Positions 8,199 through 44,865 of a DNA stretch of 64,000 bases are shown one piece after another. A program made the position numbers and the translations under genes. The notes beneath the pieces were generated by a model, which did no database searches, was not told the DNA's origin, and saw only the letters and a program-made list of their open reading frames with translations. Every line of letters begins with the position of its first letter. Position 1 is the first letter of the stretch. Origin of the DNA: Saliphagus infecundisoli (lineage in GTDB: Archaea > Halobacteriota > Halobacteria > Halobacteriales > Natrialbaceae); contig NZ_JAIWHV010000021.1 of assembly GCF_020177375.1 (NCBI RefSeq), forward strand, positions 1-64,000, written 5' to 3'.

Positions 8199-9232
8199 CA
8201 ACGACACCACCGTGCGGTTGAGTACGATCACATCAAAACTACTCCCCGTTTCTCCCCGCTCCTCGAGTCCCCGAACTCCCTCACTGGTCTACTCTTCACT
8301 GCACCTCACCCACCCTGTCTCACACCTCCTTTCCACGCCATTCCAAGTTCCTCTGATATCTGGTACTTCCTCCTGATTCTCCGCTGTTTCACCGCCGTGC
8401 TTCACCCCCTCTGCTGTGCGGAGAGATGCTGGTGCTCTACGCTCTTCCAGCACCACCTCTTACTCCCGGTCGCTTAGCTGACCACCCCTCTCTTTCTCAC
8501 CCCCTTCGGCCTGTATCTCTCCCATGTCTCATTCACTCCTGGCCACTGTCCTTCTCACCCATCACCCCCGCTCTCGTGTCCATACGCTCTCTGATACATC
8601 ATCATTTCTTCCCCCTTCTCACCTCCCACCGTTCACACCCCGTCGCGCATACTTCTATTTCTGCATACCCCCCTTTTCCTTTGGACGATTTTCGGGTGTG
8701 CAAAGCCGATTTAACGGATGCAGAATAGACTAGAGGCCCGTGGTGACAATCTAAGGACGTTAAATCGTGATTCACGAGTCCTTCTTCGGCCAAAACGGTC
8801 ACCACGAGCCTGAGACAGCATTTTTCGGGCAGTAACCACTTTCATCCCGGTTCGAGACAGTACTGACGTGATTCACATGTGCGGGCAATCTTCCGGATGA
8901 CACCATCAAAATCGTTTGCACCCGCTATTTTTAGCTGTTTCAGACCTCAAATCGTGATTCACGTCCCCTTATATCTTCACCTGAAATATAGAACTTAATA
9001 TATGTTGTAGTGAATATGAGTATGCGGTGGATAGGGTGATTCAATTTATTTTTCCATGAGAAGAATTATGGAAACATTAGTGAGTGAAGTTTCTCCGAAG
9101 GGGATATTAGACTGCCAGACATTCAACAAGCACTCTATAATTTGGCCTGTGATTGACACTAAAAGGCAGGATAGTTGTATAGAATAGTGAAGTGGAAATT
9201 GGTGATTTGAGTTGGGTTAGAAGTCTCCCAAA
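8199..9232. other. Non-coding tract: pyrimidine-rich, then AT-rich
   Basis: About 8230-8700 is strikingly C/T-rich on the plus strand with no plausible gene. At about 8700 the composition changes sharply to AT-rich, reaching the stop of the primase-partner gene at 9233. The AT-rich half carries repeated CGTGATTCACG palindromes. Together these look like an origin or partition/transfer region rather than simple spacer. Confidence 0.45.
8766..8963. repeat. Repeated CGTGATTCACG palindromes (iteron-like)
   Basis: Copies are at 8766-8776 and 8953-8963 (both perfect, in the longer context AAATCGTGATTCACG), 8867-8877 (last base changed), with a partial GTGATTCA at 9036-9043. Each is a palindrome with arms CGTGA/TCACG around one base. 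Spacings are 101 and 86 bp. They lie in AT-rich DNA next to a primase operon, as replication iterons or transfer-origin sites would. Confidence 0.55.
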
Positions 9233-10759
9233 TCATTCAATACTTTCCTCTACACTATCGTACATATCGTCGGGAAACGGGAGGCTGCCGTAGATCGTGT
9301 AGGGGCACTGGTCCTGCCCGATACAGTACCGTTGCATGTCGTCGTTATCGCAGTTCATGGGGAGCGGTGTTGTACCCTTGGGACCGATCCCGCGCTCTCC
9401 ACGACGGGCTTCATATTTGATCTGGTACTCAGTGATCTCGGGATCGTGCCACGGCCACCGGCTGAAGAGATCCTGGAGATCATCGATGGTTTCCTCGAGA
9501 GATGTGTCCTGATACTGGGGGAGCCACATCACCATCCGGACGATATTGAAGAGATCTTTTCGGACGGGTTTTTCTTCGTGCAGGCGTTCATCCAGGGCCG
9601 CCAGACACGGCAGTTCGAACAGGTCTTCGAGATTGTCGACTTCGACCGGGCGCGATCCGCTACTCGCGTGAGCGATCTGGTAGGTGTTGACCCGGCCGCA
9701 CCGGTCGATCGTAATCGACTGTTGTGAGTCATTATTCGCAAGGGTGTTTCCGACCGTTCGCGGACTAGTGAACTGCTGCAGTTGTGCTTCCTCGCCGTTG
9801 GTCTCGGGGTCGTAGGCTTCGAGAGCGTTGTAGAGATCTCTCGAGGTGTGGAACTCGCCGACCTGGGTGTTCGGACTGGCACTGATCGCAGATCGCAGGA
9901 GCCGAACGAGACGTTGCCCCTGGTTCCAATTCTGCCAGAGCTTGTCGTAATGGCCGCCGCGAATGGCTCGTTCGATCCGGTCGCTAATCGCTGTTTCGTT
10001 GCCTGTAAGCCAACTGCGTTCGTCCTCGCCCAGTTCGTCTTCTTGGATCGAGCGAAGGCGAGCGAACTCGGTTTCGGCGTACTCCTGGTAGTCTTCCTCG
10101 AAGTCTTCGATCGGGATGTAGAGGCTGTTGTTCGCGAGCCGTGTCCTTATTTCGCCCGCTTCCTCGGCGCTGGTTGCTTCGTCGGTTGTGCGGGTCAGAC
10201 AGGCCCGTGAGGCGGCCGCCATCGGAATTTCGATGTAGAGAGCGTCCTCCTCGGTCTCGTCGATGTCGAACCCGGACATCGTCGTGACGTTAGTACAGAC
10301 TCGGCCTGGATGTGGCCCGTCTTCGCTGGGTGGTTTCCCGTAGAGGACTTCCGCAATGTCTTGGTAGAGTGTGGGGTCGTCGTACTCTCGGATGAGTGAG
10401 ATGAGGTTGTTCGCGAACAGTTCCCGGATGTGGTGGATGACTTGGTTACGCCGAACGGGCGTATTTTCGAAGCGGGAGTGCCCCATCACGCAAATCGTCC
10501 CAACGGTTGCGACTAGGACGAGTGTCGCAGGCCGATCGACGAACGATCGCTCGAGGGTTCGGTCGCGTTGGGCCGGTTCAAACGCACCAGTCACGAACCG
10601 TTCGACATCCGAAAGCACTGTCTCGGGATCAGGTTCGCCGTCGACGAGGTAACGATCGTAGCCACGGGCGAACAGTTGGACGATCTCGCCCGTCGTGTAC
10701 TGGGTTGGGACGGCGGCGACCAGGTAGGCATCTCGTTCGGAGTTCCGTGGGTCAACCAT
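9233..10759 (-). CDS. Cys-rich partner of the plasmid primase (PriL-like candidate)
   Basis: About 508 aa from the ATG at 10759, which lies 5 bp after the primase stop; a longer frame to 10840 would overlap the primase gene. The protein is largely helical and acidic. Its C-terminus carries a conserved-looking Cys cluster, PMNCDNDDMQRYC then GQDQCPYTIYGSLP, reminiscent of the cysteines at the C-terminus of primase large subunits or zinc-bearing primase C-terminal domains. I infer that it forms a primase complex with the upstream gene. No helicase motif is seen. The exact family is not recognised. Confidence 0.6.
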   Translation of the reverse strand: MVDPRNSERDAYLVAAVPTQYTTGEIVQLFARGYDRYLVDGEPDPETVLSDVERFVTGAFEPAQRDRTLERSFVDRPATLVLVATVGTICVMGHSRFENTPVRRNQVIHHIRELFANNLISLIREYDDPTLYQDIAEVLYGKPPSEDGPHPGRVCTNVTTMSGFDIDETEEDALYIEIPMAAASRACLTRTTDEATSAEEAGEIRTRLANNSLYIPIEDFEEDYQEYAETEFARLRSIQEDELGEDERSWLTGNETAISDRIERAIRGGHYDKLWQNWNQGQRLVRLLRSAISASPNTQVGEFHTSRDLYNALEAYDPETNGEEAQLQQFTSPRTVGNTLANNDSQQSITIDRCGRVNTYQIAHASSGSRPVEVDNLEDLFELPCLAALDERLHEEKPVRKDLFNIVRMVMWLPQYQDTSLEETIDDLQDLFSRWPWHDPEITEYQIKYEARRGERGIGPKGTTPLPMNCDNDDMQRYCIGQDQCPYTIYGSLPFPDDMYDSVEESIE

Positions 10760-10764
10760 TATGA

Positions 10765-11670
10765 TCACTCGAGAAACTGCGGCCGGGCGTCTGTCCGTGG
10801 ATCGAACGCGGGACTGTCGATCGGTTGGACGATTCGACATACCTCCGTGTGCAGCGAATAGGGAACCCGGAGCAGACGACTTCGGTCGGCGGTCACGACG
10901 GGGTCAATCGGAATCTCGTAGCGCTCGATCAGGAAATCGTTGAGCACTTCGCGACTCTGTTCGTCGTAGTCGTGTTCGGAGTCGTCATCCAGAAGGTAGA
11001 CGTGAGCGCCCTGCCCGGAATAGACGACCATCGTTTGCTCGGCACTGAGCTCGTCTTTGAAGATATCGCGCGTTTCAAAGCCGTATTCGAGTGCTCGATC
11101 GAGATCCTCGAACGCGTAGGGATAGCCTGCTGGGTCAGCCGCGTGGATACCGGATTCGGCGAGTAGCATCTCGTCACGACTTCGGTCGTCTTGATGGGCA
11201 TCGTAGTGGAGTTCCTCGTCGAGTTCCCGGTCGGCTCGCGCTGTAGCGATGTCTTTTGCATCGATATCGACCGCGATCACCCACGGACGCTCCCAATTAT
11301 CCAGCCCGTAGTACACACCCGCTGACACGGGATCGGATTTCACAACGAGATCGGGATCAGCGAGCGCATACTCGCTGTTGCCGAAGGGATCGTTACGAGC
11401 GGGGGCGCGGATGAACGACAGAACGTCCTCAATCTCATCGAAGTTTTGTGAAATCTGGTCACCAGTCGAATCCGTCCGCCACGTTGCTCGTCGGATGAAA
11501 TCTCGGTCGGGCCGCCCGTCTTTGCGGATCGGATGCCGATCGCGGAAGCTGAGTCCGAACTCTTTCGGACCAGTTGCTGTGATGAACGCCGGAAGTTCGT
11601 CTGTGTACTCGGGAAACTCTTGGTCGTAATAGGTGTAAATCTCGTCTCGGGTGGCTTCTCTCCACGTCAT
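10765..11670 (-). CDS. Archaeo-eukaryotic primase catalytic subunit (PriS-like)
   Basis: The start is taken as ATG 11670 (MTWREATRDEIYTYYDQEFP), giving 301 aa; the longer frame to 11775 has an arginine-rich non-native N-terminus. The three AEP motifs are visible: WVIAVDIDAKD with the catalytic DxD at about 135-137, VVYSGQGAHVYLLDD at about 216-229 (the SGxxGxH motif), and RLLRVPYSLHTEV at about 265-277. The family makes primers for replication. It is shorter than cellular PriS (about 380 aa) and clusters with transfer genes, so it is probably the element's own primase. It overlaps the upstream membrane-protein gene by 4 bp. Confidence 0.85.
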   Translation of the reverse strand: MTWREATRDEIYTYYDQEFPEYTDELPAFITATGPKEFGLSFRDRHPIRKDGRPDRDFIRRATWRTDSTGDQISQNFDEIEDVLSFIRAPARNDPFGNSEYALADPDLVVKSDPVSAGVYYGLDNWERPWVIAVDIDAKDIATARADRELDEELHYDAHQDDRSRDEMLLAESGIHAADPAGYPYAFEDLDRALEYGFETRDIFKDELSAEQTMVVYSGQGAHVYLLDDDSEHDYDEQSREVLNDFLIERYEIPIDPVVTADRSRLLRVPYSLHTEVCRIVQPIDSPAFDPRTDARPQFLE

Positions 11671-11978
11671 GACCCCACCCCCGCGAACTGGAGGAAGTCG
11701 ATCGCGACAATTGCCGCCAAGGGCGCAACGACTCCGACCACGACACCATCTCCTCGTCGTGGAAACGGCGTCCAACTCGGAATAAGGATTGAGCCAACGA
11801 TCACTCGGAAAGTGAAGAGAACGAACAATAAGAGTGCGTAGACGACGAGCGCGACAAAGATGTGGCTGAGCCCGATTTCCATCAATCTCCCATAGGTGTA
11901 GATTGGAATGTGTTGGGAAAGATATGCTGACACTATGTCCAAGTCCGAAACAATGCTCTGGAGCAAGGTGAGTGGCAT
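11667..11978 (-). CDS. Small membrane protein between primase and VirD4 genes
   Basis: The 103-aa protein has two hydrophobic segments, about residues 36-64 (HIFVALVVYALLLFVLFTF) and about 78-98. Its ATG overlaps the stop of the upstream VirD4-like gene and its stop overlaps the primase start, so it is translationally coupled on both sides. Such placement suggests a membrane part of the transfer apparatus or a membrane tether for the DNA-processing proteins. No family is recognised. Confidence 0.65.
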   Translation of the reverse strand: MPLTLLQSIVSDLDIVSAYLSQHIPIYTYGRLMEIGLSHIFVALVVYALLLFVLFTFRVIVGSILIPSWTPFPRRGDGVVVGVVAPLAAIVAIDFLQFAGVGS

Positions 11979-14900
11979 TATTCGTTCACCACCTCGTCTA
12001 ATTTCCTGAAAGTTTGTATTGTTGTCATTCCCTCCTCTTCGAAGCCGGCGACAGACTCTTGCATACGAGACAGTTCACGAGCTGCGCGTCCAGTCACGGT
12101 CCCAGGCAATCGCTCTTCGTCAGCAAGCAGTTCGATTGTGGCTCGAGCCTCGCTGAGAGCGGGGAATGCCCAGACGGCATCTGCCTCAACAGCCGCCATC
12201 TTGTCATAGTCAGAGATAATCGCCTGAGGATTGTTCGACGCCATTTCAACTTCGCCAACCCACAGTAGTGTATCATCAGCATCGAACCCGGCGACGTCGA
12301 ATATCGTCTCTGGACCGTGCTCGAAATATCGTTCAACCCGACCCACCTCATCGACCGCGCCGATCCAGCGACTTAGTAATTCAACACCGACTTTGTGGGG
12401 TGTCTTCTCTCCGAGATCGCCAACGCCAGCTTCCGCCGTGATCGTTTCATCGAGTAGCTCCCTCCCCTCAGGAAGGACTGTGTAGTACAGTCGCCGATTC
12501 ACCCGGGCTTGTTCGAGGAGTCCGTTCTCGATCAGTACCTCAACATCGAGCCCAGGGAGGTCCTCTTCCAACTTGTCCATCCCCTCCAAGAGCGTATAGT
12601 CTGGAAGCTCCCGGTTCATCGAATCCAGAACACGTTTCAGGAACGTTGCGTCATCGCGAGAAAGCCCCTGCCTCCGAAGCGTCGCATCGTCGACCGGGCT
12701 GGTATCCGTCGCCTCTTCGTGACCACCGAAGAACGAACTCCCCACCGCCTCGTCCAGCGACTCGCCGTCGCTCTCGGTGTCTTCTCTCGAGTCGGCGTCT
12801 TCGCCGTCTTCGATCTCCTCGAACGTCGACTGTTCGGGAAGACTGTCCATCTCATCGCCTTCATCTTCGGACGCAGATTCAGCTGACTGCGTGTCCGACT
12901 CGGAATCCGGCTCTGCATTGAGTCCCGGTGTCCCCAATTGCTCTGTCTCCGACTCTGGGTCTGACCCCGGCGGCGATTCTGATCTCGATCCTGCATCTGG
13001 TGCTGGCGGCGATCCAACACTACGTTCGGTCCCAGAAGGAGAATCGCCCCACTCCGACCACTCGAGCGTGTCCTCGTGCGTGGGCACGTCCAAGCCGTAC
13101 TTGTCGTCAGTTCGCTCAACGACTTCCGGCAAGAGTTCGTCGTCGAAGCGTGCCTGCTCGGTCGCCGACAGCGGCTCGTCGCTCTCTGGGTGACCACTGA
13201 TGATCGGGAGCGAGTGCAACGTCAGCGGTGCAGGTCGATCCTCACCGAAGCGCGGACTCGCGAGCTTCGTGAACCACTCGCCTGACGCGATCCGATTGAT
13301 CCGGTTGCGAACATCCTCAACGGACAGATCGTCGTGCGTGAACGTTTTCGCAAACCGGTCCGTGATCGAGATGTCCCCGACCATTTTCGTATGCACCTCC
13401 GTCAACAGCTCTTCGTACGCGCCGTTGTTGCCATCGTCCCAAGAGTTGACCTGCTCGGGATACTGCATTACGAGTCCCATGCTCAGCCCCGATGAACGAC
13501 CCTGTGGAAGGAGCTGATCGGCGACTAACTCCGTCGCGATGAACGGCGCAGCCTCCTCGAGGATCACGTTCACCACATTGTCTGGCGACGACCGCCGTCG
13601 GTGCTGAATCGAGTGCCACAGATTACTCAACAGGACCGTGGTCAACCCACGCTGGGCGTCGAGCGTGAGGTCGCCGAGGTCGAACAGGATCGTCACGTCC
13701 TCGTTGAGGAGATCGCGGAAATCGAAATGGACGTCCTGATCGTGGAACCCGTAGAGGCTATCGCCATCGGCCTCACGACCGGGCCTGTGGCGCAACATCC
13801 AGTGGAGGTTGCGGTCCTCTTTCAACCGGTTGAGCCGGTTCTGAACCGCACTCATCGACGTATGGAACTGGTGGTCTTCCTTGTTGAACTGGCTGGCTAA
13901 CGACTCGTGGATATCGTCGTTGATCCCCGAAACGTCCGGCAGTTCTCGCGCACGCTGCATCCGCGTTGCGGCCTCGACCAGATCGTCCAGCCCGAATACG
14001 TCATCCCCGTGAACGGGGTCGAATAATGCGTGGATGAGAAACGTCAGAATCTCGTTCGCGACGAACGCCTGTTCGTGACGCTCTGCACCCATAATCATCC
14101 GCATCAACGCGTGGAAGTGGTCAGCTTTCTCCTTGACCGCGGTCTCCCGATCATGGCCGGCTTCGAGCGCGGGTCGAAGATCGAAAAACGAGACCGCTGG
14201 GAGTGTTTCGGGCTCACGGAAGTAGTAGACGTCCTCGAGTGAGCCATGCCGCTTGTAGTGGCCCATGAGGTAGTTCGTGCACATCCCGTCGCCTTTCGGC
14301 TCGAAGAGGATGTTCGGCCCTGGCGTCGTCTCGCTGAGCGAGAGGAGCATCCGATTGACGAGTTGGCTCTTCCCACCGCCGGTCGTCGCACAGACGAGCC
14401 AGTGGCGCTTCAGCTGGTCCGGCGGCACGCGAAGTGGCCCATCAATGGAGCTAGCAGGATCCTCGCCGAGCACCATTCCTGTCGTGTACTGCCGACGCTG
14501 GGCGGCTTCCAAGCCGGGGAGTGACGTCCGGCTTTCTGGATTCGCGTGGGTTTCCTTGGTGGCCTCGTCCGTGAGGTGTTCCGTGCTCGGTACGATGATC
14601 ATGTTGCAGAGTTCGTTCGGATCGAGGTGGAGGTCGGGCGTCGAGCGACCGAGTCGCTTGCCAGTCACGACGTCTCGATTCAAGACACGGTTGAAGCAGC
14701 GCCGCGAGTACGTCCGGCTACGGCGGGCGACCAACCCCTTGTCGTATAGTTTCTCGCTCTCAATGCCATAGAATCGCCCCTCCAGCGGGTCGAACACCGT
14801 GCTGATGCTTCGGAGCGACTGTTTGAGCTCGGACGTGTCACTGCTCGCCGACTTCGGGGGGACGGTTACGACCCGCAGGTTAGCCGTGAACGTATGCCCC

Positions 14901-16639
14901 AAGTCTTCTGTTTGGAGGTTGTCGATCAGATCACGATCGGCTTCGGGAATCGGCTGAGACTCCTGTGGATGGTGCTCTTGCTGGGGTTCGGCGCCATAGA
15001 TGAGGTCTTCGATAGCTTGAATGATGACATCTCCCCACGTTTCTCGGTCGCCTCTGATACGCTCAATCCGTTGATTACCACTGTGAGTCGAATCCGGTTC
15101 ACCTTCGAACGCGGCTTGGAAGACGATCGGATGATCGGTCGTTGCGAAGTGGTCGATCAGTACAGTGAGAGGGGCGTGTGAGCTATCTTTCGTGAAGTCT
15201 TCGTCATCAAGTTCCTCGTCGAAGAGCCTGATCGGCGTCATTGGATCGCCACTGCCAGTCCATCGCAGACTATACGGCTCAACGTCGTCTGGATGGGGTC
15301 GCGCGAGAACGCCCTCGCCGGTATCAACGGGGGTGTCGAGTCCGAATCTCAGTGAGCCTGGATCGCGGTTTTCTTCCTCCTCTTGTTTCCGAAGTGCGTC
15401 AAGATCAACGCTTGGGAGTTTCCCTCCAAGCGGGGTGTTGGCTCCCGACTCCGACCCCAACTCCGGCTCCGATCCCGTTCTCGATACCGTCCCCGTCCCC
15501 TGGCCGTCGCTGATACCGGCCCCATCAGCAGCGAGGGGTTGATCGCCGTGAACGCGGGTGATCGCTTCGACCTCTTCGACAGAGGTCTGAAGCGCCCCCT
15601 TTTCCAGCGCTGTCTCGAACTCCTCGTAGCTGTATTGCTCTGGAGCGACGAGTTTCTCGGCCAGATCGACGGTCACGCGTTCGATTTCGACAGTATCCGG
15701 GTAGGCGGAGTTGAGCCGATCATAGAGCGTCGAGAGGTGCTGGTCAGTCGAGTAGTAGAACTCGATTGGCGCATCCGTGCCGTTGCTGTAGATGGTGAAA
15801 TCGAACGTCAGCGGGTCAGGGCTGGCGAACGGGTTAATCCGTTGCCAGAACGATTCTTCGGTCGGGTTCAGGGCGTGCAAAGGGCGGATTTGATTGACGA
15901 TTTCTGAGGGCGCCCGTTCACCCGTCGAGGGAATGACGCGGACGTACTCCTGTTTGCGATCGAGCGGAGAGTCAGTGGACGCGTCGAGAGTGAGGACGTT
16001 CGCTTCGACCTCCTTCGGGTTGTGGATGCCTTTGCAGACCACCTTTGGGATCTCGGCTTCGACCGTCCGGAACGTGATCGTCCCGTAGGAAAGCAGTCGT
16101 CCCACGAGCGACTGGTGACGAGTGATTTCGACGACACGCTCGAGAGCGAGCTTCGCAAACTGATCCTGTCGAATCCCTCTCGTGCGCGCGTAGAGGGTGT
16201 CTGAGGTGAGAACGTATTCGGTTCGAACCGACCGTACCAGTGGAAGCAGGCCGACGACAACGCCCGTGACTCCGAGGGTGATTGGGATCGCCCCAAGCCA
16301 CCACAATGGGAGGGTGACGCTCGTCACGACCAGCCCCAGCTCGACCGGCGCGAGCCCGATGAGGGCCGGCCCCGTAGCGAATCCGGCAACGCTGGGAGTC
16401 GCGAGGGCGACTGCAAGCCCAACGAGGAGGATCGCGCCCACGTACGCACGAAGACCGCTCCGAGCCAGCGGCGTGCCAGCCCACCGAACGTCGAGGTCGG
16501 CAACGTCAGCTACTCGGTCGTCTTCTGCAACGATCCACTCGAGATTCGGAGTGTCGTCCGTCCCGTCGTGGGCAGACGCACTCGCTCGATCGTCGTCCGC
16601 TTGGTCGTCCGTTGGATTGTTGTCTATTGGATTGGTCAT
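11978..16639 (-). CDS. VirD4/TraG-like coupling ATPase with nuclease-like C-terminus
   Basis: The 1553-aa protein starts with a charged tail, then transmembrane helices at about 64-87 and 97-135 and a PH-like (bPH2) domain at about 140-210. A large linker with Ser/Gly/Asp stretches follows. The P-loop ATPase has Walker A CATTGGGKSQLV (Lys757), NVILEEAAPFI as Walker B near 1028, and a coupling-protein-like QYPEQVNSW segment. A second acidic linker (about 1150-1300) leads to a winged-helix-like part and a terminal domain (about 1435-1520) with DVAGFDADDTLLWVGEVEMA, which resembles the core of PD-(D/E)XK nucleases. VirD4 proteins pass DNA to a type IV secretion channel. The nuclease-like tail and PH domain are unusual. 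The nuclease assignment is tentative. Confidence 0.8.
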   Translation of the reverse strand: MTNPIDNNPTDDQADDDRASASAHDGTDDTPNLEWIVAEDDRVADVADLDVRWAGTPLARSGLRAYVGAILLVGLAVALATPSVAGFATGPALIGLAPVELGLVVTSVTLPLWWLGAIPITLGVTGVVVGLLPLVRSVRTEYVLTSDTLYARTRGIRQDQFAKLALERVVEITRHQSLVGRLLSYGTITFRTVEAEIPKVVCKGIHNPKEVEANVLTLDASTDSPLDRKQEYVRVIPSTGERAPSEIVNQIRPLHALNPTEESFWQRINPFASPDPLTFDFTIYSNGTDAPIEFYYSTDQHLSTLYDRLNSAYPDTVEIERVTVDLAEKLVAPEQYSYEEFETALEKGALQTSVEEVEAITRVHGDQPLAADGAGISDGQGTGTVSRTGSEPELGSESGANTPLGGKLPSVDLDALRKQEEEENRDPGSLRFGLDTPVDTGEGVLARPHPDDVEPYSLRWTGSGDPMTPIRLFDEELDDEDFTKDSSHAPLTVLIDHFATTDHPIVFQAAFEGEPDSTHSGNQRIERIRGDRETWGDVIIQAIEDLIYGAEPQQEHHPQESQPIPEADRDLIDNLQTEDLGHTFTANLRVVTVPPKSASSDTSELKQSLRSISTVFDPLEGRFYGIESEKLYDKGLVARRSRTYSRRCFNRVLNRDVVTGKRLGRSTPDLHLDPNELCNMIIVPSTEHLTDEATKETHANPESRTSLPGLEAAQRRQYTTGMVLGEDPASSIDGPLRVPPDQLKRHWLVCATTGGGKSQLVNRMLLSLSETTPGPNILFEPKGDGMCTNYLMGHYKRHGSLEDVYYFREPETLPAVSFFDLRPALEAGHDRETAVKEKADHFHALMRMIMGAERHEQAFVANEILTFLIHALFDPVHGDDVFGLDDLVEAATRMQRARELPDVSGINDDIHESLASQFNKEDHQFHTSMSAVQNRLNRLKEDRNLHWMLRHRPGREADGDSLYGFHDQDVHFDFRDLLNEDVTILFDLGDLTLDAQRGLTTVLLSNLWHSIQHRRRSSPDNVVNVILEEAAPFIATELVADQLLPQGRSSGLSMGLVMQYPEQVNSWDDGNNGAYEELLTEVHTKMVGDISITDRFAKTFTHDDLSVEDVRNRINRIASGEWFTKLASPRFGEDRPAPLTLHSLPIISGHPESDEPLSATEQARFDDELLPEVVERTDDKYGLDVPTHEDTLEWSEWGDSPSGTERSVGSPPAPDAGSRSESPPGSDPESETEQLGTPGLNAEPDSESDTQSAESASEDEGDEMDSLPEQSTFEEIEDGEDADSREDTESDGESLDEAVGSSFFGGHEEATDTSPVDDATLRRQGLSRDDATFLKRVLDSMNRELPDYTLLEGMDKLEEDLPGLDVEVLIENGLLEQARVNRRLYYTVLPEGRELLDETITAEAGVGDLGEKTPHKVGVELLSRWIGAVDEVGRVERYFEHGPETIFDVAGFDADDTLLWVGEVEMASNNPQAIISDYDKMAAVEADAVWAFPALSEARATIELLADEERLPGTVTGRAARELSRMQESVAGFEEEGMTTIQTFRKLDEVVNE

Positions 16640-16715
16640 TCAAATCTCACCTCATGAACTTGCAGACGGGTGAACACGGGTCCCACAGACCAGTCGCGCT
16701 CGAGGAACTGCTGTC

Positions 16716-19700
16716 CTAATCGTCATCATCGAGACTCACCTCCACGTCTCCAGGGGCTGATCCACCACTGTCTGGCCTGCCTGGCGCCCCATCAGCAGCA
16801 GTGTCACTGCTGGTGGTGAACTCGGTCCGAGCAGTACCGATCCATTTCTCTAAAAGCGTCGAGGAGATGAGTACCTCCTTCTCGAGAGAATTGAGATCGA
16901 CTGCGGCAAGATCCTCTACTGTTTCGATCCCCGCCTCACGGAGCTGACCGCTGTAGGACTCCCCGATACCCGTGATCGTCGTGACCTCTTGGCGATCGTC
17001 TTCTGTTCTGTCACCCGCTTTCTCGTTGCTGGACGGTTCGTGCGCGTTTTCTCGTTCGGTAGGAGCGTCTTCACTCTCATCCTCGAGTGTCTCGACGTCT
17101 GGTTCTCCGTCAGTGTTCTCGGTGCTGCGTTCCTCCTGTTCATTCCCGTTTTCGTCTCCAGTTTTGTCTTCTGTCGGCGTCTCACGCTCTTCTGTTTCCT
17201 TTGCTAACTCGTCCTCACCATCTGTCTCTGTGGTCGTCGTCCCGATCGAGTCATCACCTGCGGAGAGTGTGTCTGCAGTGCCGGCGGTACTGTCAGTAGT
17301 CTCGCCAACCGCCGACTGATCCTCCTCGTGAATTGCCGCGAGAGCAGACTCAAGTGGACCTGGCCCGTCGCTCGTGTCCGTGGTATCGTGTTCGTCGCCC
17401 CCCGCCTCAGTGCTCTCCTCGTCTTCGCTCTCGTCGGCTCGGGCGTCGGCTGACTTACTAACAGCCCCCTCGCTGTCGTCTGTCACCTGCTCATCGCTGT
17501 TCGTGTCAGAGTCAGAGATTCCGAAAGCCCGATCGAAGGCTTCGGTGTCGCTCACGTGAGCACCCATGTAGTGGTGGAACGCGCCGTGCGTCTCCGCGTC
17601 GTAACTCAACAACGCGTCCTCGAAACTCCCAGAGGACACACGAAACGTATACCATTCTTGTTCATCGCTGAATCCGACGATGCCAGTCGTATACCCAACG
17701 TCGGCCTCTCCCGTCACTGCCTCGCTGGTGACGAAATTATACTGGCTCTCGTTTAGCCCGAACGCGTCAGCGACCGACCGATCGAGGTCCTTTAACCGGA
17801 AGAACTCGGTGGTCGTACACTGCCCTCGAATTGCGTCTTTGTGGCCCGCTTCGTCATCGTTCCCGCTAATGAATTCGTCTGCACGGTGCGAGAGGAACCA
17901 CAGCCCCGCGTCGTAGTGCCGCCAGTGGCGTGCGGCCTGCTGGAGCCAGGGCAACATCTCCTCGCTGTGCAAGAGATAGTGCGCCTCGTCGATGACGAAA
18001 ATCGTCTCTTCGGGCGCGCGCTTGACCATCTCGTAGACGTTGCGCAACAGGAGTTGGAGCATCGTCGACTTGTCTGCCGTACCTAGCGCCTCGATCTGCT
18101 GCAGGTCCAGGTAGTTGACTTCGCCCTCCTCGAGGGTCACCTCGCTCTCCCCGATCAAGTGCTGGTAGCGCCCGTGCTTCTTGAAACCGACCAGCTTGCG
18201 GAGGAACTGCCGCACCTCCTGTTTGACCTCCTCCCCTTCGATATTATGGCCCGAAAGGGTGTACTCAGTGGGGTTCTCGAGCATTGCCGTCGTCTGCTCG
18301 ATAAAGTCGTCCATCGTCGGACTCTCCCGGCCGTGGGTCTCCGGCTGACCAGGGTAGATTCCCGCCTCGCGGTAGGTTTCTGTGACGATCTCGCTGACGA
18401 GATGTTTGAAATCATCCGGGTCACCGCCCTGCGCCTTGATGATCGAGAGGACCCAGCTCACGGCCGAATCGCGGGCCATCCCGAACGGATCGACGTCTTT
18501 GGTCGTCATTACCGTCTCGGGCGTTTCCTGGATCAACAGCGGGTTGATGGTCGTATTCCCGTCGACGATGATTCGGTTGCCGTTGACTGCCTCCGTGTGC
18601 TGGTAAAAGTCGCCCATCGTATCGAGCAACACGACCGTCCGATCCTCCTCACCAAGCCACCAGCGCAGGGCCTGCTTGCCTGCATGGTATGTCTTCCCCG
18701 ATCCCGAGTCCGCTAACGTGAGCTTATGCCCAGCCCCGCCTCGTTCGAACTGGCTCGCGACGATCTTCTGTCCGTGATGTTCCGAGCGGCCGTACTCCAC
18801 GCCATCTTCGTCTTGGATGTTCGACCGGGCAAATGGGAACAGGGCACCGAGCGCCCCATCACACACCATCGTCGTGTGGTCCTTCCACGAGAGTTCATTG
18901 TACTGGTCGCGAGCACCCGGAGCGCCCGATTTAAACAGTTCGTCGGCTCTCGACGACGATATCGCGGACAGTTCCGCAGGGGTGTCCTCGACCGCGTTCA
19001 ACACTGGCTCTTCAGCCTCCTCAAGTGCGCGGCGTTTCGCGACATCGAGGGTGAGCGTCTCCGGTGATTCGTACCCCTGTTCGATCTGTTCTTCGGCCAG
19101 ATCGAGCGCCCGCTTCGATCCGGCCCGGACAGTGAGATAGCCGTTGAGCTCGAACGGTCGGACTGTCGTCTGCTTGAGAAGCCGATACATCGCCTGGTAG
19201 TAGTGGACGTCCTCGGTCATCACCGACGACTCGATATCGTCGACCTCCTGCCGATCACTGATATCCGCATCAATATCCTGAATCCGTGGTTTGAGTCGCT
19301 CGATCGCGTCAGCCTTGTCGACCGGGCGTGCGCGGATGCGGAAATCGAAATCAACCCCACCGAGCGTCTGCAACGCTTTGAAGATATTTGACGGCGGGCG
19401 TTTGCGCCACCCAGTCAGCCAGTACGTCCGTGCGTACTGATCGCCGACCTCGACATAATCGTCGTGGACGTCGACAGTCCGCGGAGAAAGGGCGTCCTGC
19501 AAGGGCGAAGAGTCTACACCACGATCACCGTCCGTCTCCGAGTTGCCCACCGGATGGAACAACCCTTCTCGAATCCGAGCAAGCGTGGTCGTCTCTGATG
19601 CTGTCTCCGAGTCGTCGATCACATCCTCGGCAGGTCCAGCTTCAGCGGGTGATTGGAGCAGTTGAGTGACAACGCTGTCCGTCGGCTCTACCCCGGTCGC

Positions 19701-20936
19701 TCCGCCATCGCCCGCGACTTCAACCTCATCGATGCCTGCAACCGCATCGAGCGATAGTTGCCCATCGGCCTCTTCGCCGAGGTCTTCACCTGCGGTGGTT
19801 GCCTCCACGTTGGTTCGAGCCTGCTCATCGAGATGTGCGTCGACCGCTCCCGGTCGGTGACTCTCCTTCTTCGCCTGCTCGTGCTCGTGAGCACCCGATT
19901 CGGCCGATTTGATATCAGGCCACACCGAAAGGTTCGCTGTCTGCGACGCTGATTCGTCGCTGAACTCCCGGTGTTCGACTCCGGCCCAGTATTTCGCCAG
20001 GAGGACCGCGTGTTCAGCAGGGTCAATCAGCTCTCCCGAACAGCCGCTCACCGAGCCCGCGACGGCCTTCGCCGAGGCGACCCGATCCCGCAATCGACGC
20101 CGCATCTGCTTGCGCTGGCGAACATTCGAGGACCCACCACTCCTGAGCGAAAACAGTGAGCCATCATCCTCCTGGAATCGGTCATCGAGATCAAAGGGGT
20201 CGACCTCGACAACAATATACGAACGAAGATCGCGAGCATCCCATCCTTCGGCCTCCTCCTTCTCGAATTGGACGTAATCTCTCAACAACTCTCGGGCGAT
20301 GACCCACTCGTCACCACCGAACCGGTCACTATGGTATTGCTCACGGTACTTGTCCGTAATCTCGTCAACGTCGGTGTCAAACGTCGTCATGAAGAAATCG
20401 AACGGGCCATCCATCTCGCGGCGGATAGCGAGCGTGAGGTCTTTGACCATCTCGTTCGCCGCTGACGAGGACTGCCGTTCAGTATGCCGACCATCTACGC
20501 GCACAATCGCGACATACCGGCCATCCTCCATCTCAGCAAACCCATTCGAGAAGATGCGCTTGACACCGTGGATCGGCTCAACCGATGACTCAACGTGATC
20601 TTGTGGATACTGCCAGCGAAGGACAACTGATCGAAGGCCCGCACGGGCACGGTCGAGCCCGGTCGTTGTTTCATAATCCGTCGTCGCCGAGATCAGGATC
20701 CCGATCACTGCCAACGGAACCCCGATTGCCGCCGTCGTCCAGAACAGCCCGGATCCACTCATGAATGGCGAGCTGAAAATCCCGAAAAAGAAGACGAATC
20801 CCCCGGGTGCGCCGTAGAGAAGATGTTTGAGGGCGTATCCCTGGATTTTGATTGACGAGTCGACGTACGGAAGCGCCAACTGTGCTGGATCTCGATTCGT
20901 TTCCTCTGAGCCGCTTACCGTTGATTGGGTTGACAT
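16716..20936 (-). CDS. VirB4-like conjugation ATPase with N-terminal membrane helices and HhH tail
   Basis: The 1406-aa protein has two hydrophobic helices at about 42-62 and 64-84, as in VirB3-VirB4 fusions. A VirB4 N-terminal region follows, interrupted by an acidic insert (about 340-480). The ATPase domain has Walker A TLADSGSGKTYHAGK (Lys748) and Walker B TIFVIDEAHYLLH near 982. An acidic, Ser/Thr/Glu-rich linker (about 1120-1315) precedes a C-terminal helix-hairpin-helix DNA-binding-like module, ITGIGESYSGQLREAGIETV. VirB4 energises type IV secretion. The length is well above the usual 800 aa. Its gene lies 12 bp after the VirB6-like gene and 76 bp before the VirD4-like gene. Confidence 0.88.
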   Translation of the reverse strand: MSTQSTVSGSEETNRDPAQLALPYVDSSIKIQGYALKHLLYGAPGGFVFFFGIFSSPFMSGSGLFWTTAAIGVPLAVIGILISATTDYETTTGLDRARAGLRSVVLRWQYPQDHVESSVEPIHGVKRIFSNGFAEMEDGRYVAIVRVDGRHTERQSSSAANEMVKDLTLAIRREMDGPFDFFMTTFDTDVDEITDKYREQYHSDRFGGDEWVIARELLRDYVQFEKEEAEGWDARDLRSYIVVEVDPFDLDDRFQEDDGSLFSLRSGGSSNVRQRKQMRRRLRDRVASAKAVAGSVSGCSGELIDPAEHAVLLAKYWAGVEHREFSDESASQTANLSVWPDIKSAESGAHEHEQAKKESHRPGAVDAHLDEQARTNVEATTAGEDLGEEADGQLSLDAVAGIDEVEVAGDGGATGVEPTDSVVTQLLQSPAEAGPAEDVIDDSETASETTTLARIREGLFHPVGNSETDGDRGVDSSPLQDALSPRTVDVHDDYVEVGDQYARTYWLTGWRKRPPSNIFKALQTLGGVDFDFRIRARPVDKADAIERLKPRIQDIDADISDRQEVDDIESSVMTEDVHYYQAMYRLLKQTTVRPFELNGYLTVRAGSKRALDLAEEQIEQGYESPETLTLDVAKRRALEEAEEPVLNAVEDTPAELSAISSSRADELFKSGAPGARDQYNELSWKDHTTMVCDGALGALFPFARSNIQDEDGVEYGRSEHHGQKIVASQFERGGAGHKLTLADSGSGKTYHAGKQALRWWLGEEDRTVVLLDTMGDFYQHTEAVNGNRIIVDGNTTINPLLIQETPETVMTTKDVDPFGMARDSAVSWVLSIIKAQGGDPDDFKHLVSEIVTETYREAGIYPGQPETHGRESPTMDDFIEQTTAMLENPTEYTLSGHNIEGEEVKQEVRQFLRKLVGFKKHGRYQHLIGESEVTLEEGEVNYLDLQQIEALGTADKSTMLQLLLRNVYEMVKRAPEETIFVIDEAHYLLHSEEMLPWLQQAARHWRHYDAGLWFLSHRADEFISGNDDEAGHKDAIRGQCTTTEFFRLKDLDRSVADAFGLNESQYNFVTSEAVTGEADVGYTTGIVGFSDEQEWYTFRVSSGSFEDALLSYDAETHGAFHHYMGAHVSDTEAFDRAFGISDSDTNSDEQVTDDSEGAVSKSADARADESEDEESTEAGGDEHDTTDTSDGPGPLESALAAIHEEDQSAVGETTDSTAGTADTLSAGDDSIGTTTTETDGEDELAKETEERETPTEDKTGDENGNEQEERSTENTDGEPDVETLEDESEDAPTERENAHEPSSNEKAGDRTEDDRQEVTTITGIGESYSGQLREAGIETVEDLAAVDLNSLEKEVLISSTLLEKWIGTARTEFTTSSDTAADGAPGRPDSGGSAPGDVEVSLDDDD

Positions 20937-20948
20937 TGGGTTGGGTGG

Positions 20949-22604
20949 TTAGGAGTTCAGTATCCGATCGATGCGTTCCTTCTCCATTTCGTCGAACGTT
21001 TGGTGCTCATAATCGGCATCAATCGGGTCGACACTGTTCTGGTTCGTGTTGCTCGTCTCGACTGACTGCCCGGTGCTCCCGTCAGAGGACCCACTACGTG
21101 ACGACGAGCCCCCGCCGTCACCCGTGGTAGACGTGGGTGACCCACCGTCGCCAGAGCCACCACTATCCGTGCTGGATCCCCCACTACTCCTGCCAAACCG
21201 ATCGCGGATCCCACTGGTCCACCCGCTACCAGTAGAATATTGATCGAGGGTCGTTTGTTCGCCAGACCCGCGATCATAGAAGTCCGAGGCGATGCGTTTG
21301 ACTTCTCCCGGCGCCCGGTGGACTGTTCGATCCAACGCTTTTTCCGTTGGTTCCCTTCCCATCTTGATCGATGCGGCGAGCTGGGCCTTCTGAAGGAACT
21401 TCCACGGAAGATATGCGAGTGCGAAACCGACCCCGAACGCGATTAACACGATCGAGCCGGCAGTTCCCGCGACCGATTCGCCCAGCGGGAGGAATATGAG
21501 GAATCGTAAGATGATCGACTGGATGATCGAGAGAGCCAGAAGACCCCCAAAGATGAACAACCCAAAGCTGCCGTAAGCACGAGCTTGACCGTGAGACGCC
21601 CATGCAGCCCACATCAAAGGCCAAAACAGCCCCACGACATACGTCAGAAAGTTCATTGCGATGATCGCGACTAAGGCTGCGATGACGATGATCCCCTTGA
21701 AGAATACTAAGACAGCCAATACAATCACGCCAAGCCCGAATCGAACCGCGCCGTCGACGCTGATGAACTGCTCACCATCGGGATAGATTTCTTGAGCTAA
21801 TTCGGCAAATAAATGCAGTAAACCGGGGAAGAACACGAACGTCCCAAATATCATCAGCCCTGCAAACCCGACCCGCTTCCACGATCGCCGTCTCTTTTCG
21901 GCGCTATCATAAGAAAACGAAATGCCGAACTGCGTGATGAGCCACATGATACCGAGGACAAGCGGCCACGACATCACGGAATAAACGGTCTGCCAGAACC
22001 CACTCTCAGGTTCGGTCCAAGTCGAGGGATCCGTCGCCTCACCAGGTGCGGGAACTTGGATAGCATACGCGTGCAACGCGTTGATAAGCGCAATCAACTC
22101 GTTGAGTGCTGCCGTGGTGAAATACACCGCCACAGAGTGAGCCCACTCGCCTGGCGAATGTACTGCATCGGCTCCGCCCGTTATTGTTTCCTCTGCGGCT
22201 TTCGCCGTGTCGTAAATGTTACCGAGTCTTTCAGCCCCCGGAACATGTTCTTCGGCAACATCTCTTCCCCGATCCAGGACCGCGTTTCGAGCATTTTTGG
22301 CATCCTCTATCGGGGAAAAGCCACTCCCGCCATCATCCACCTCAGATGCATTCTCATTCGAGCTATTTTCTTCCTCACCAGTGTCTTCGACCACCACGTC
22401 TTCAGAATCCCCGCCACCATAGTCGATTGAGATGTTCGAGCTGCCATCGGGCTCCGCACCGAATCCATCATCCTCCGATTCATTACTCTCGTTCTCTTGA
22501 GCCTCGGCGACACTCACACCACCAAGTAATGGGATACTCAGCAGTCCGAGACCCAAAACCGCGATCAGTATCCACCGTGTATCGATTGGTAGTTGGGATC
22601 CCAT
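20949..22604 (-). CDS. VirB6/TrbL-like polytopic membrane protein
   Basis: The 551-aa protein has an N-terminal signal peptide (WILIAVLGLGLLSIPLLGG, cleavage near AEAQ) and an acidic exterior region to about residue 105. About six membrane helices lie between residues 165 and 410. A hydrophilic Ser/Gly-rich tail (about 455-515) ends in a charged helix. Multi-pass proteins of this layout sit next to VirB4 as channel proteins. Assignment is by topology and position, not by motif. The 9-bp gap to the upstream gene and 12-bp gap to virB4 indicate one operon. Confidence 0.7.
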   Translation of the reverse strand: MGSQLPIDTRWILIAVLGLGLLSIPLLGGVSVAEAQENESNESEDDGFGAEPDGSSNISIDYGGGDSEDVVVEDTGEEENSSNENASEVDDGGSGFSPIEDAKNARNAVLDRGRDVAEEHVPGAERLGNIYDTAKAAEETITGGADAVHSPGEWAHSVAVYFTTAALNELIALINALHAYAIQVPAPGEATDPSTWTEPESGFWQTVYSVMSWPLVLGIMWLITQFGISFSYDSAEKRRRSWKRVGFAGLMIFGTFVFFPGLLHLFAELAQEIYPDGEQFISVDGAVRFGLGVIVLAVLVFFKGIIVIAALVAIIAMNFLTYVVGLFWPLMWAAWASHGQARAYGSFGLFIFGGLLALSIIQSIILRFLIFLPLGESVAGTAGSIVLIAFGVGFALAYLPWKFLQKAQLAASIKMGREPTEKALDRTVHRAPGEVKRIASDFYDRGSGEQTTLDQYSTGSGWTSGIRDRFGRSSGGSSTDSGGSGDGGSPTSTTGDGGGSSSRSGSSDGSTGQSVETSNTNQNSVDPIDADYEHQTFDEMEKERIDRILNS

Positions 22605-22613
22605 GCCTGGGAA

Positions 22614-23060
22614 TCAGAACACGAATGGCATGGTAACCAGTATCTCGCCACCCTCGAGGCAGCTGTCGAGGTTAACACCGACATAATCAAGCACTGCGCC
22701 TGCAGATCCGAGGAATAAGCCCCCGACGAGCGTAATTACGCCATTGACAACCGTGTTGCGCTCGCCTCGGCGACCACTGCCACGGCCAGTTCCCAAGAAG
22801 CCGATCGCAATTTGAGCCAACCCGATCAGGATGAGGACCAACGTCAGCAACCCAAAGAAGAGGAATATGGCCTGTCCGAGCGCGCCCGAACAAGCAACAG
22901 TACTAGCTTCCTCGAGCGCTGACTGGGCAATGACTGGCTGGATCAAGAGCACCGCCGCTGCGACGAATACTGTGATCTGAGCTATTGCGACACTCTGGCC
23001 AACCAGGACACGTTTCGTTGCCTGGGTTAATCTCCCATGGCAATTGTCATCCGGTCCCAT
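22614..23060 (-). CDS. Pilin-like (VirB2/TrbC-type) small membrane protein
   Basis: The 148-aa protein has a hydrophobic signal-like helix (about 23-45, ending PVIAQSALEEA). A Cys-containing loop and two more membrane helices separated by a short basic GTGRGSGRRGERN loop follow. This signal + helix + basic loop + helix plan is that of VirB2-type pilins. It is the first gene of the long minus-strand string and lies upstream of the VirB6-like gene. The two cysteines could form a disulphide outside the cell. Assignment by topology and context only. Confidence 0.6.
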   Translation of the reverse strand: MGPDDNCHGRLTQATKRVLVGQSVAIAQITVFVAAAVLLIQPVIAQSALEEASTVACSGALGQAIFLFFGLLTLVLILIGLAQIAIGFLGTGRGSGRRGERNTVVNGVITLVGGLFLGSAGAVLDYVGVNLDSCLEGGEILVTMPFVF

Positions 23061-26686: not shown

Positions 26687-27352
26687 TCATCGGAGATGAC
26701 CTCGCCACAGTGCCCACACCCCGATTAGAACGGGAGGCCACACTAACAGCGCCGTTGACAGCAGTGCAGGACTCACCCCAACACCCTGCAAGACGATTGC
26801 TGATATCCCTGTCGCACCCAGTCCGAGGACCGTGGTGATGAATAGCGGTTTCGAAAGAACGACTACTAACACGACCACTGTCGGGATGCCGATCCAGACC
26901 GCCTCGGTCTCGAGTGAACCGATGTGAACTCCCGTTCCATAGGCGAGCAAGCGACCAAACAGACCAACCCAGACCGACATGATGAGCGCGGCGAGAATCC
27001 CTCGTAGGCTCGCTCGCACTGCCCCAATCCGATACACTATCGGCCCGTCGCCGACCCAGCCGTCCTGGAAGATATTGTGCTCGTGGCTGTTCTGGTGACA
27101 GGGCTCGCACAGCGTCTCGAGGTTCGACAGGTGATTCGACCCGCCGTTGGCGTACGCCTGGATGTGGTGAGCGTGCAAGCGTTCGCCGTCGTCACCAGCG
27201 TGGGGTCCGCTCTGTCGCCCACAGTTCTGGCACGTCCAGTCGTCTCGTCGATACACTGTCTTGCGGCGTGCCTCCCAGTCCGGCGGATTCTTCCCCGAGT
27301 ACGTCTCTGGATCGTCATAGCGAGAGTTGATCTGGGAGTCGTACTGACTCAT
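26687..27352 (-). CDS. Membrane-anchored HNH endonuclease
   Basis: The first 95 of 221 residues form a classic HNH domain: CQNC at 41-44, LHAHHIQAYANGGSNHLSN with the HH pair at 62-63 and the Asn near 77, and LCEPCHQNSHEHN at 82-92 completing the zinc site. Residues about 110-220 contain three to four hydrophobic helices (ILAALIMSVWVGLFG, VWIGIPTVVVLVVVL, GLGATGISAIVLQGVG, LLVWPPVLIGVWAL). A nuclease tethered at the membrane could cut incoming DNA or process DNA at the transfer channel. The ATG overlaps the stop of a 43-codon upstream frame (ATGA). Confidence 0.8.
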   Translation of the reverse strand: MSQYDSQINSRYDDPETYSGKNPPDWEARRKTVYRRDDWTCQNCGRQSGPHAGDDGERLHAHHIQAYANGGSNHLSNLETLCEPCHQNSHEHNIFQDGWVGDGPIVYRIGAVRASLRGILAALIMSVWVGLFGRLLAYGTGVHIGSLETEAVWIGIPTVVVLVVVLSKPLFITTVLGLGATGISAIVLQGVGVSPALLSTALLVWPPVLIGVWALWRGHLR

Positions 27353-27605: not shown

Positions 27606-27983
27606 ATGGCCGAAGACAAACCCGAATCGCCTGATCTCCCAAAAACTCTCCTCGAGCCTCTCGAACGGCAGTCACCCACTCGCCTCGAAGAAGTGAGTGC
27701 GTACGCTCGTGAACTCGCCCGGTGGAAGCGTGAACGCGAACAAGAACTCACCGACGCTCAAGAACAGGACTCAATCAGCGACGACGAACAGGCCAAACTC
27801 GAAGCACGCGGAATTTCGACCGATCCGGCCGACTACGACGACGTCACTGCTAGTCGAGCCTATATTACGATTAAGGAAACGAAACCTGGCTATAAGTATT
27901 ATTACTGGCAATGGAGATCTGGAGAGGACTCCTGGAAGAACCAATACATCGCCCCCGTCGACCCAAAGGACACGACCAGCTGA
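27606..27983 (+). CDS. Small DUF6788-like protein, first gene of the chaperone operon
   Basis: The 125-aa protein has an N-terminal helical half (LERQSPTRLEEVSAYAREL ...) and a short C-terminal module, AYITIKETKPGYKYYYWQW then SWKNQYIAPVDP. That module resembles the compact beta motif of DUF6788-type proteins common in haloarchaea and proposed to bind nucleic acid. The gene begins 10 bp after the dyad and is followed after 22 bp by the Hsp70 gene. It may be the regulator of the operon. Function is not established. Confidence 0.6.
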   Translation: MAEDKPESPDLPKTLLEPLERQSPTRLEEVSAYARELARWKREREQELTDAQEQDSISDDEQAKLEARGISTDPADYDDVTASRAYITIKETKPGYKYYYWQWRSGEDSWKNQYIAPVDPKDTTS

Positions 27984-28005
27984 CACCCCCCTCACCACTA
28001 AACTC

Positions 28006-29631
28006 ATGAGTGATACACCTGCAATCGGGATTGATCTGGGAACAACCAACAGCGCAATTGCCCTTGCTGAGGCGGGCACAGGCGATCTCACAATCCTCGA
28101 AAACGGCAGCGGTGAGCGGACTACACCCTCTGTCGTGAGTTATGACGGCGTTGAAGCGCGTGTTGGCACTCCAGCTGTAAACCAGGCCGTCCAATATCCA
28201 GGACGAACTGTCTTCTCGGTCAAACGGCTGATGGGAAGCGATGAGGTCGTTGTCTTCGACAATACCCTGACGAACACCACGGAAGAACTCACGCCCGAAG
28301 AAGTCTCCGCACTCATCCTCAAGAAACTAAAACAAGACGCTGAACACCATCTCGAGCAGTCGATTACGAACGCGGTGATCACTGTTCCGGCGTATTTTAA
28401 CGACGATCAGCGGCAGGCAACCAAACACGCGGGGGAGATTGCAGGCTTGACTGTCGATCGGATCATCAACGAACCCACCGCTGCCTGTCTCGCTTTCGGA
28501 CTTCAAGGCGGTGAGGGCGAGACCGTCCTCGTGTACGATCTCGGTGGCGGCACGTTCGATAGTTCGCTCGTCAGCGTCGGCGGTGGCGTTTTCGAGGTCG
28601 TCGCGACCAACGGTGAGACCCAACTCGGCGGTGATGACTGGGACGACACGATTGTCGACTGGCTCATCGAGCGGATCGAACGCGAACTCTCGATCGCGTT
28701 CGACGCCGAGGCCAACCCGATCGCACTCGAACGACTGTTCGACGCTGCCCAGCAGGCCAAGCACGACCTCTCCGCGCGAGAACGGACGACCATCTCCATC
28801 CCGTTCCTCGAGATCGATGGAGAGACACACAACGTCGAATACGAGCTGGCACGCGATGAGTTCGAAGCGATGACGGATCACCTCGTCGAGACCACGATTG
28901 AGTGCTGTGCGGAACTCCTCGAGGATGCAGGCTATACACCAGCAGCGATAGACACGGTGCTGCTCGTCGGTGGCGCAACCCGAATGCCTCAAATCCAGAA
29001 CTACGTTGAAGCGTTCTTTAATCACCCACCCTCGAAACGGGTGAATCCTGACGAAGCAGTTGCCCTCGGCGCAGCAGCCCAGGCGGCGATCATCCACGAA
29101 ACCGCCCTTCCCGTGCCAGCCGATGACAGAAGCGGTGGACAGACCCCCTCTCTGGAAAAGAACCAACCCAACAGAACACTCGAAACGACCTCTGCCAACA
29201 CGAACGATATTGTTCTTGCCGACGTCACGCCACAATCACTCGGCGTCAGAACAATAGATTTGGAAACGAGAGAATACTATTACAGCGTGCTAATCAACCG
29301 AAACTCACCGATTCCAGCACGCGCCACGGACAGATTCTCAACGTTGGATGACAATCAAGAGTACGTCAGGTTTCCGGTCTATCAGGGGAATAGTCCCACG
29401 CTGGACGAGAACGAACAGATTGACGAGTTCAAAATTGGACCGATCCCACCCCGTCCGAGGGGGGAGCCGAATATTGAAGTAGAGTTCCAACTCGACGAAA
29501 ACGGGATTCTCCACGCCAGCGCCGAAGATATCGACCACAACATTGGCACCGAGATCGAAATCCAACCGACAATGACACTGACACAACACGAAATATCCAA
29601 ACTCCGCCAAACCCTCCCCGTCCTCCGATAA
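28006..29631 (+). CDS. Hsp70 (DnaK-like) ATPase lacking the C-terminal lid
   Basis: The start is the ATG at 28006, where the nucleotide-binding domain begins at once: GIDLGTTNSAIALAEAG. Other signatures are VPAYFNDDQRQATKHAGEIA, VYDLGGGTFDSSLV and VLLVGGATRMPQIQ. The substrate-binding beta domain follows (from about residue 410, VTPQSLGVRTIDLE). The protein stops at about 541 residues, soon after ENGILHASAEDIDHN, so the helical lid of DnaK (usually 600-640 aa) is essentially missing. It therefore resembles specialised Hsp70s rather than the housekeeping one. No grpE is seen. The J-domain gene follows 30 bp downstream. Confidence 0.88.
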   Translation: MSDTPAIGIDLGTTNSAIALAEAGTGDLTILENGSGERTTPSVVSYDGVEARVGTPAVNQAVQYPGRTVFSVKRLMGSDEVVVFDNTLTNTTEELTPEEVSALILKKLKQDAEHHLEQSITNAVITVPAYFNDDQRQATKHAGEIAGLTVDRIINEPTAACLAFGLQGGEGETVLVYDLGGGTFDSSLVSVGGGVFEVVATNGETQLGGDDWDDTIVDWLIERIERELSIAFDAEANPIALERLFDAAQQAKHDLSARERTTISIPFLEIDGETHNVEYELARDEFEAMTDHLVETTIECCAELLEDAGYTPAAIDTVLLVGGATRMPQIQNYVEAFFNHPPSKRVNPDEAVALGAAAQAAIIHETALPVPADDRSGGQTPSLEKNQPNRTLETTSANTNDIVLADVTPQSLGVRTIDLETREYYYSVLINRNSPIPARATDRFSTLDDNQEYVRFPVYQGNSPTLDENEQIDEFKIGPIPPRPRGEPNIEVEFQLDENGILHASAEDIDHNIGTEIEIQPTMTLTQHEISKLRQTLPVLR

Positions 29632-29661
29632 GCAACAGCTCCCCAACACCCACCCCGGCCA

Positions 29662-38399: not shown

Positions 38400-38594
38400 C
38401 GAATCGCCCGGGCTTTCCTGCCCCGAATCGTGTTGCTGGCCCTTTCCCGTGCCCCGATCGCACGACTGCAGACAGCCGGGGTGACACCCTTCAGATTACA
38501 GATTGAAGAACCGAGGCGATAGAGTTCGTGGTGCCTATGCCAGAAGAGTCTTCCGTAGCTCAGCTTTTTCAATTAGAGGTTACATGTGTATCGC

Positions 38595-38815
38595 AAAAAC
38601 GGGCACGAGAAGCGGTATTCTGGTGATTTCAAATATTCGGCGAGCCAGTGAGTCGATCTTCAGTGTAAAGAACGAGCTAGTTTTCAAGTCAGTGCGGCTC
38701 CAGTAAAAGGAATAAGATTCGGCTAACTTTCCGAATACGTGTGAAAACGCCGGTTTCTCGTCCCTTTTCGACCCCTCATATATGAGAATCCAACGTCCAA
38801 AGCTGAGCTATAACG
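38595..38815. repeat. Diverged direct repeat, copy B
   Basis: Second copy of the element at 34625-34810, same orientation, downstream of the GH2 gene. It contains stops in every frame. The rest of 38400-38912 holds no gene I can support; this is also the gap between two convergent GH2 genes. Confidence 0.5.
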
Positions 38816-38912
38816 AAAACTGATCGGCAGCGGCCGGTCGTTGCATCTCTCTTCTTGCTCGGTAGTCGTCGACTGACGCGACGCCGTGGTCATCACCGAG
38901 CCGCGTTTATAG

Positions 38913-44810: not shown

Positions 44811-44865
44811 GCTGGCTCTCTTTATCGCCGGTACAATTAAGAGAAGGGTCGACAACAGTTAGCGC

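Follow-up and report, generated by a model that had tools for sequence, protein, structure and literature searches.

Reviews report no recognisable relaxase in archaeal conjugative plasmids (PMC12857230, PMC9905601), and archaea may have relaxases that are still unknown (PMC3158045). An operon of Saliphagus infecundisoli raises the same question: which of its proteins, if any, cuts the DNA that is to be transferred? It lies in a window of 64,000 nucleotides taken from contig C13 of the 76-contig, 4.53-Mb genome, where a first-pass annotation had described a conjugation-like operon without a visible relaxase and had suggested that the coupling protein itself may cut DNA. We consider it probable that the operon is a haloarchaeal conjugation module whose coupling protein (VirD4/T4CP) and relaxase form a single polypeptide, the "missing" relaxase most likely being, on the grounds of homology and a structural model, the C-terminal domain of the coupling protein.

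The operon is on the minus strand, with its open reading frames at the places first given and separated by short gaps or overlaps (Table 1). The order of transcription is a three-TM protein, a six-TM VirB6-like protein, VirB4, the 1,553-residue VirD4/T4CP, a small TM protein, PriS and a PriL-like protein. The two primase genes lie outside the span first given, 11978–23060. Sequence matches confirm the 1,406-residue product as VirB4 (NF045975, E 1.3e-20; TIGR00929, E 3e-9; both below the curated NCBIfam cut-offs), and its C-terminus matches HHH_5 (E 2.5e-5). The PriS assignment is confirmed in the same way (TIGR00335, E 4.4e-11; PF01896, E 6e-4), and the last gene matches the "primase-associated protein" model NF038197 (E 4e-212), with a weak match to the PriL model (E 0.027). 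The pilin-like and VirB6-like labels are given by topology only, three and six hydrophobic stretches respectively: Pfam makes no assignment for the 148-residue protein and NCBIfam gives no match above cut-off, and the 551-residue protein has no family assignment in either. Among the loci searched, the gene for the 103-residue membrane protein was found only in the close copy L036.

Table 1. Features of the transfer operon and of the adjacent non-coding block, in window coordinates.
Feature	Position	Strand	Basis
148-aa protein, three hydrophobic stretches, pilin-like	22614..23060	-	topology only
551-aa polytopic membrane protein, VirB6-like, six hydrophobic stretches	20949..22604	-	topology only
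VirB4-type ATPase, 1,406 aa, C-terminal helix-hairpin-helix	16716..20936	-	NCBIfam, HHH_5
VirD4/T4CP-type coupling protein, 1,553 aa	11978..16639	-	TM stretches, bPH_2, ATPase, C-terminal MOBC-like domain
MarR-like winged helix of VirD4 tail, residues ~1317–1398	12446..12691	-	AlphaFold, VIA, profile comparison
PD-(D/E)XK-type nuclease core of VirD4 tail, residues ~1403–1553	11981..12433	-	AlphaFold topology, conservation, profile comparison
103-aa membrane protein, two hydrophobic stretches	11667..11978	-	hydrophobicity
PriS-type primase small subunit, probable start 11670	10765..11670	-	TIGR00335, PF01896
Primase-associated protein, PriL-like	9233..10840	-	NF038197
Non-coding core, candidate oriT or replication origin	8655..8780	.	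conserved in four own copies and related genome G002

The neighbourhood of the transfer unit contains an HNH endonuclease gene upstream (26687–27352; PF01844, E 1e-9), an adjoining HSP70 (DnaK) gene with a DnaJ-domain gene after it (27697–31206), and a glycoside hydrolase cluster (GH2 family, GH127 and alpha-L-arabinofuranosidases) with IclR regulators (35238–49549).

The operon is present four times in its own genome, on C13 and in three further copies on C5, C16 and C30, and related units occur at 64 named loci from GTDB genomes and on 145 PLSDB plasmids, so it is not a chance arrangement. Close relatives sit on PLSDB plasmids of Natrinema, Haloterrigena, Halobacterium, Haloarcula and many more, and the candidate relaxase is present in about half of the sampled haloarchaeal genomes (150 of 292). 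Gene order is conserved across these units: VirB4, VirD4 with its tail, PriS and the PriL-like gene follow one another on one strand in 55 of the 64 haloarchaeal loci, with a 4-bp overlap between VirD4 and PriS in 48 of 61. The membrane genes upstream of VirB4 vary from branch to branch. A search of IMG/VR viral contigs for the tail domain found none. All 145 plasmids are labelled "non-mobilizable" in PLSDB, a label that we dropped as evidence because CloDF13 itself is labelled likewise, as are 21 of the 22 haloarchaeal plasmids in which a relaxase was matched.

The C-terminal tail of the coupling protein had been described as nuclease-like at residues 1430–1553. The nuclease fold is borne out by the structural model, but the domain is larger, spanning residues ~1317–1553 and consisting of a MarR-like winged helix and a PD-(D/E)XK-type nuclease core. 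Residues 1301–1553 were modelled with AlphaFold from 21 sequences (pLDDT 87, pTM 0.85), and in this model the winged helix is followed by alpha-beta-beta-beta-alpha-beta, the element order of the PD-(D/E)XK core. In searches with Foldseek and VIA the first half of the tail matches MarR-family proteins (VIA Z 8.5 to MarR 3cjn) and the second half matches many PD-(D/E)XK enzymes, each at middling scores, including NucS/EndoMS, Card1, Can2, AF1548, EcoT38I and the nickase Nt.BspD6I. Direct sequence searches of the tail against Pfam and the PDB gave no match, and neither did Pfam PF13814 (Replic_Relax) over its cut-off. Six residues, H1415, D1448, E1463, E1465, D1477 and W1490, are invariant in all 82 aligned diverse sequences, which represent several VirD4 branches and seven stand-alone tail proteins. 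Three VirD4 proteins that at first appeared to be tail-less (L049–L051) carry a divergent H...PD...E-V-E domain, which scores 29.4 (E 0.002) against MOBC relaxases. They belong to a second VirD4 branch, in which another conserved stretch runs from this domain to the C-terminus.

The original study of TraX, by Francia et al. in 2013, is said to have described MarR-like and PD-(D/E)XK domains with an E-x-E pair. TraX belongs to MOBC, a relaxase class related to restriction endonucleases; its N-terminus is a winged helix and no covalent intermediate was seen (PMC12857230). For comparison with the tail we took from bacterial plasmids 16 MOBC proteins, in which H114, P147, D148, E161, E163 and K167 are invariant, R171 is nearly so and Y172 is found in many. 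Aligned by hhalign, the tail profile matches these proteins over 146 columns with a probability of 94.5%, a score of 57.3 and E≈8e-8, and the H, D and E-x-E of the tail are in register with the MOBC residues. As hhalign E-values are pairwise and differ from database E-values, we rely on controls: the highest score of 200 column shuffles is 21.7, the reversed alignment scores 13.2, and haloarchaeal Mrr and NucS families built likewise score only 10–17, which is noise level. Each half of the tail also matches by itself, the nuclease half with a score of 32.1 (E 2.5e-4; shuffle maximum 18.4) and the winged-helix half with E 2.4e-5, and Gram-positive MOBC proteins alone give E 6e-5. With a shallower alignment of 8 Gram-negative MobC sequences the hhalign match was not significant, although the motifs were aligned already, and it became significant once Gram-positive MOBC proteins were added. 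By this profile evidence the tail is homologous to MOBC relaxases. The failure of PF13814 to find it is shared by the bacterial MOBC-type proteins of L214 and L215.

The lysine and the arginine/tyrosine pair that follow E-x-E in MOBC proteins are not kept in the tail, where the lysine position is N or H, and the proline before the aspartate (MOBC P147) is found among haloarchaeal VirD4 proteins only in clade-2. Since K, R and Y are not kept we name the tail a MOBC-like sister family rather than filing it as MOBC; since the K/R positions are not conserved its active site is altered, activity cannot be assumed, and its chemistry may differ from that of MOBC. The loss of the K/R/Y set would suit a catalytically altered MOBC relative that is kept only for DNA recognition, docking the motor at a specific site, with cleavage left to some other unrecognised protein or with double-stranded DNA moved without cleavage, and it has been proposed that archaeal conjugation differs from the bacterial scheme (PMC9905601). 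We judge this unlikely: a dead nuclease would hardly hold six residues, H, D and E-x-E among them, invariant in 82 of 82 sequences, and the primase pair in the conserved unit fits single-stranded DNA. The suggestion that the coupling protein itself cuts DNA draws strong support from homology and the predicted fold, through the invariant H/D/E-x-E residues and the relation to MOBC.

The remainder of the coupling protein has the features of a T4CP, an N-terminal TM anchor and a HerA/FtsK/TrwB-type motor. It has three N-terminal TM stretches, a bPH_2 domain at residues 139–212 and a HerA/TrwB-type ATPase region at ~690–1200. Sequence models match it weakly (DUF87, E 1.8e-5; TraD, E 9e-4), and the diverged relative L054 matches TrwB_AAD_bind (E 4e-7). 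The model of residues 690–1200 (pLDDT 73) finds TrwB, Cag-beta, VirB4 and HerA in fold searches, with TrwB reaching a TM-score of up to 0.55 of target and a Foldseek E of ~2e-5; the VirD4 core called at first pass is thus recovered. We take the protein as VirD4-type, noting that by sequence evidence alone HerA would fit too. HerA is among the top fold matches and DUF87 is the main Pfam match, which would be expected of a HerA–nuclease type machine that resects or degrades DNA in repair or defence, with no part in conjugation. This is very improbable: TrwB and Cag-beta are equal or better matches by TM-score, the gene is tightly linked to VirB4 and to genes for polytopic membrane proteins and is often carried on plasmids, its product has TM anchors, and the tail matches MOBC rather than Mrr or NucS, the two nuclease families used as controls.

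A separate relaxase was found neither in the operon nor in the related units. Genome-wide, PF03432 (MOBP HUH relaxase) has its sole match on contig C45 and none in the operon, and a MOBP-like relaxase profile found no match in the VirD4CT loci searched. Conversely, the pNG500-type units, whose MOBP relaxase is separate, have short T4CPs that lack the tail; this complementarity speaks for the tail as the relaxase. The absence of a relaxase reported at first pass accordingly holds for canonical relaxases in the conserved unit, but the fused, nuclease-type tail is most likely a relaxase. C45 (L151) is a contig of 10,238 bp, probably circular because its two ends overlap in one reading frame, and encodes a NikA-like RHH protein and, after it, an in-frame fusion of a PF03432 relaxase with a TrwB/TraG-type coupling protein; with a relaxase–T4CP fusion of its own, it resembles a small mobilizable plasmid. 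That the operon needs a canonical relaxase in trans, such as the one that C45 supplies in the same genome, is the least probable explanation, given that C45 has its own T4CP, and so resembles a mobilizable plasmid that makes use of the channel, and that the VirD4CT loci searched contain no MOBP-like relaxase.

With the tail as a fused relaxase, transfer could proceed as follows. The C-terminal winged helix would bind a site on the element, and the MOBC-like PD-(D/E)XK domain would nick one strand at that site by means of its H/D/E-x-E cluster and a metal ion. The membrane-anchored hexameric VirD4 motor would then pump the nicked strand through a VirB4/VirB6-like channel, and the co-transcribed PriS/PriL-like primase would probably prime the complementary strand, in the donor or in the recipient. 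Such a tail is a variant and not a new principle, since it belongs to a branch that is sister to a known class of non-HUH relaxases. More tentatively, with chances a little short of even, it may represent a distinct archaeal relaxase family, whose nickase resides permanently within the translocation motor and has H, D, E-x-E and D in its active site but not the bacterial MOBC lysine and arginine/tyrosine. The enzyme could not travel covalently bound to the DNA, as HUH relaxases do, and the nicked strand would be handed over within one hexamer.

The non-coding block at 8655–8780 could be an oriT or a replication origin. After its core lie copy-specific imperfect palindromes, CGTGATTCACG at 8766 and 8953 (0.12 expected in the window). 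Over 8583–8970 the core is accompanied by palindromes that differ among the four copies in one genome, as expected of replicon- or element-specific iterons.

Stand-alone versions of the tail, of ~270–347 residues, occur at L052 (8936–9811), L152 (10195–11070), L153, L154, L155, L156 and L157. In all seven loci the gene adjoins a divergent partner of ~260–370 residues, weakly resolvase-like in L052, where a tyrosine integrase, a UvrD helicase and a possible primase are nearby and no coupling protein was noticed in 20 kb. These loci are possibly mobilizable elements. Searches for att repeats bounding them gave none that was convincing, and "integrative mobilizable element" stays a lead for this reason. 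A sequence of 18–27 bp beginning CTCGAAGCCCAGTGGCGC is found near the stand-alone gene in L152, L052, L154 and L155, on both sides of it in L152 (10138 and 11167), and is possibly a binding or recombination site.

As a haloarchaeal VirB4/VirD4 unit the operon is ordinary; its coupling protein is not. A survey of a Halobacteria-dominated plasmidome reported 41 MOBC-profile matches and made no link to VirD4 (PMC8563766), and we found no published description of a T4CP–MOBC-like fusion in the open-access literature that we searched. The tail is a concrete candidate for the missing archaeal relaxase, with named residues to mutate, and the fusion predicts that DNA initiation and pumping are coupled in one protein. 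If this is true, haloarchaeal plasmids now typed "non-mobilizable" become recognisable as conjugative.

The closest known systems are the MOBC relaxases, CloDF13 MobC and pAD1 TraX, with which the tail shares the succession of MarR-like winged helix and PD-(D/E)XK-type core, the register of H...D...E-x-E and a significant profile–profile match. In most of the bacterial plasmids fetched the MOBC gene directly adjoins the T4CP gene, whereas the haloarchaeal tail is fused to the T4CP C-terminus, a context that supports the proposed role of the tail. The tail further differs in being archaeal and undetected by PF13814, in lacking the K and R/Y after E-x-E, and in D1477 and W1490, which are invariant only in the haloarchaeal family. 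The Sulfolobus and Thermococcus conjugative plasmids (pNOB8, pT33-3) resemble the operon in having VirB4- and VirD4-like proteins while no relaxase has been recognised in them (PMC12857230, PMC9905601). Haloarchaea also have MOBP modules for processing plasmid DNA, C45 being one example. In pNG500 of Haloarcula marismortui and in a plasmid of Haloarcula sp. JP-L23 the module consists of a separate MOBP-like relaxase and a short T4CP, with a small protein encoded upstream. In pNG500 a VirB4-like conjugal transfer gene adjoins this module, as in the operon, and C45 likewise joins relaxase and T4CP in one protein. In both types, unlike the operon, the T4CP is short and has no C-terminal MOBC-like tail, the relaxase is of MobA/VirD2 type and either precedes the T4CP or forms its N-terminus, and no PriS/PriL is annotated in the unit.
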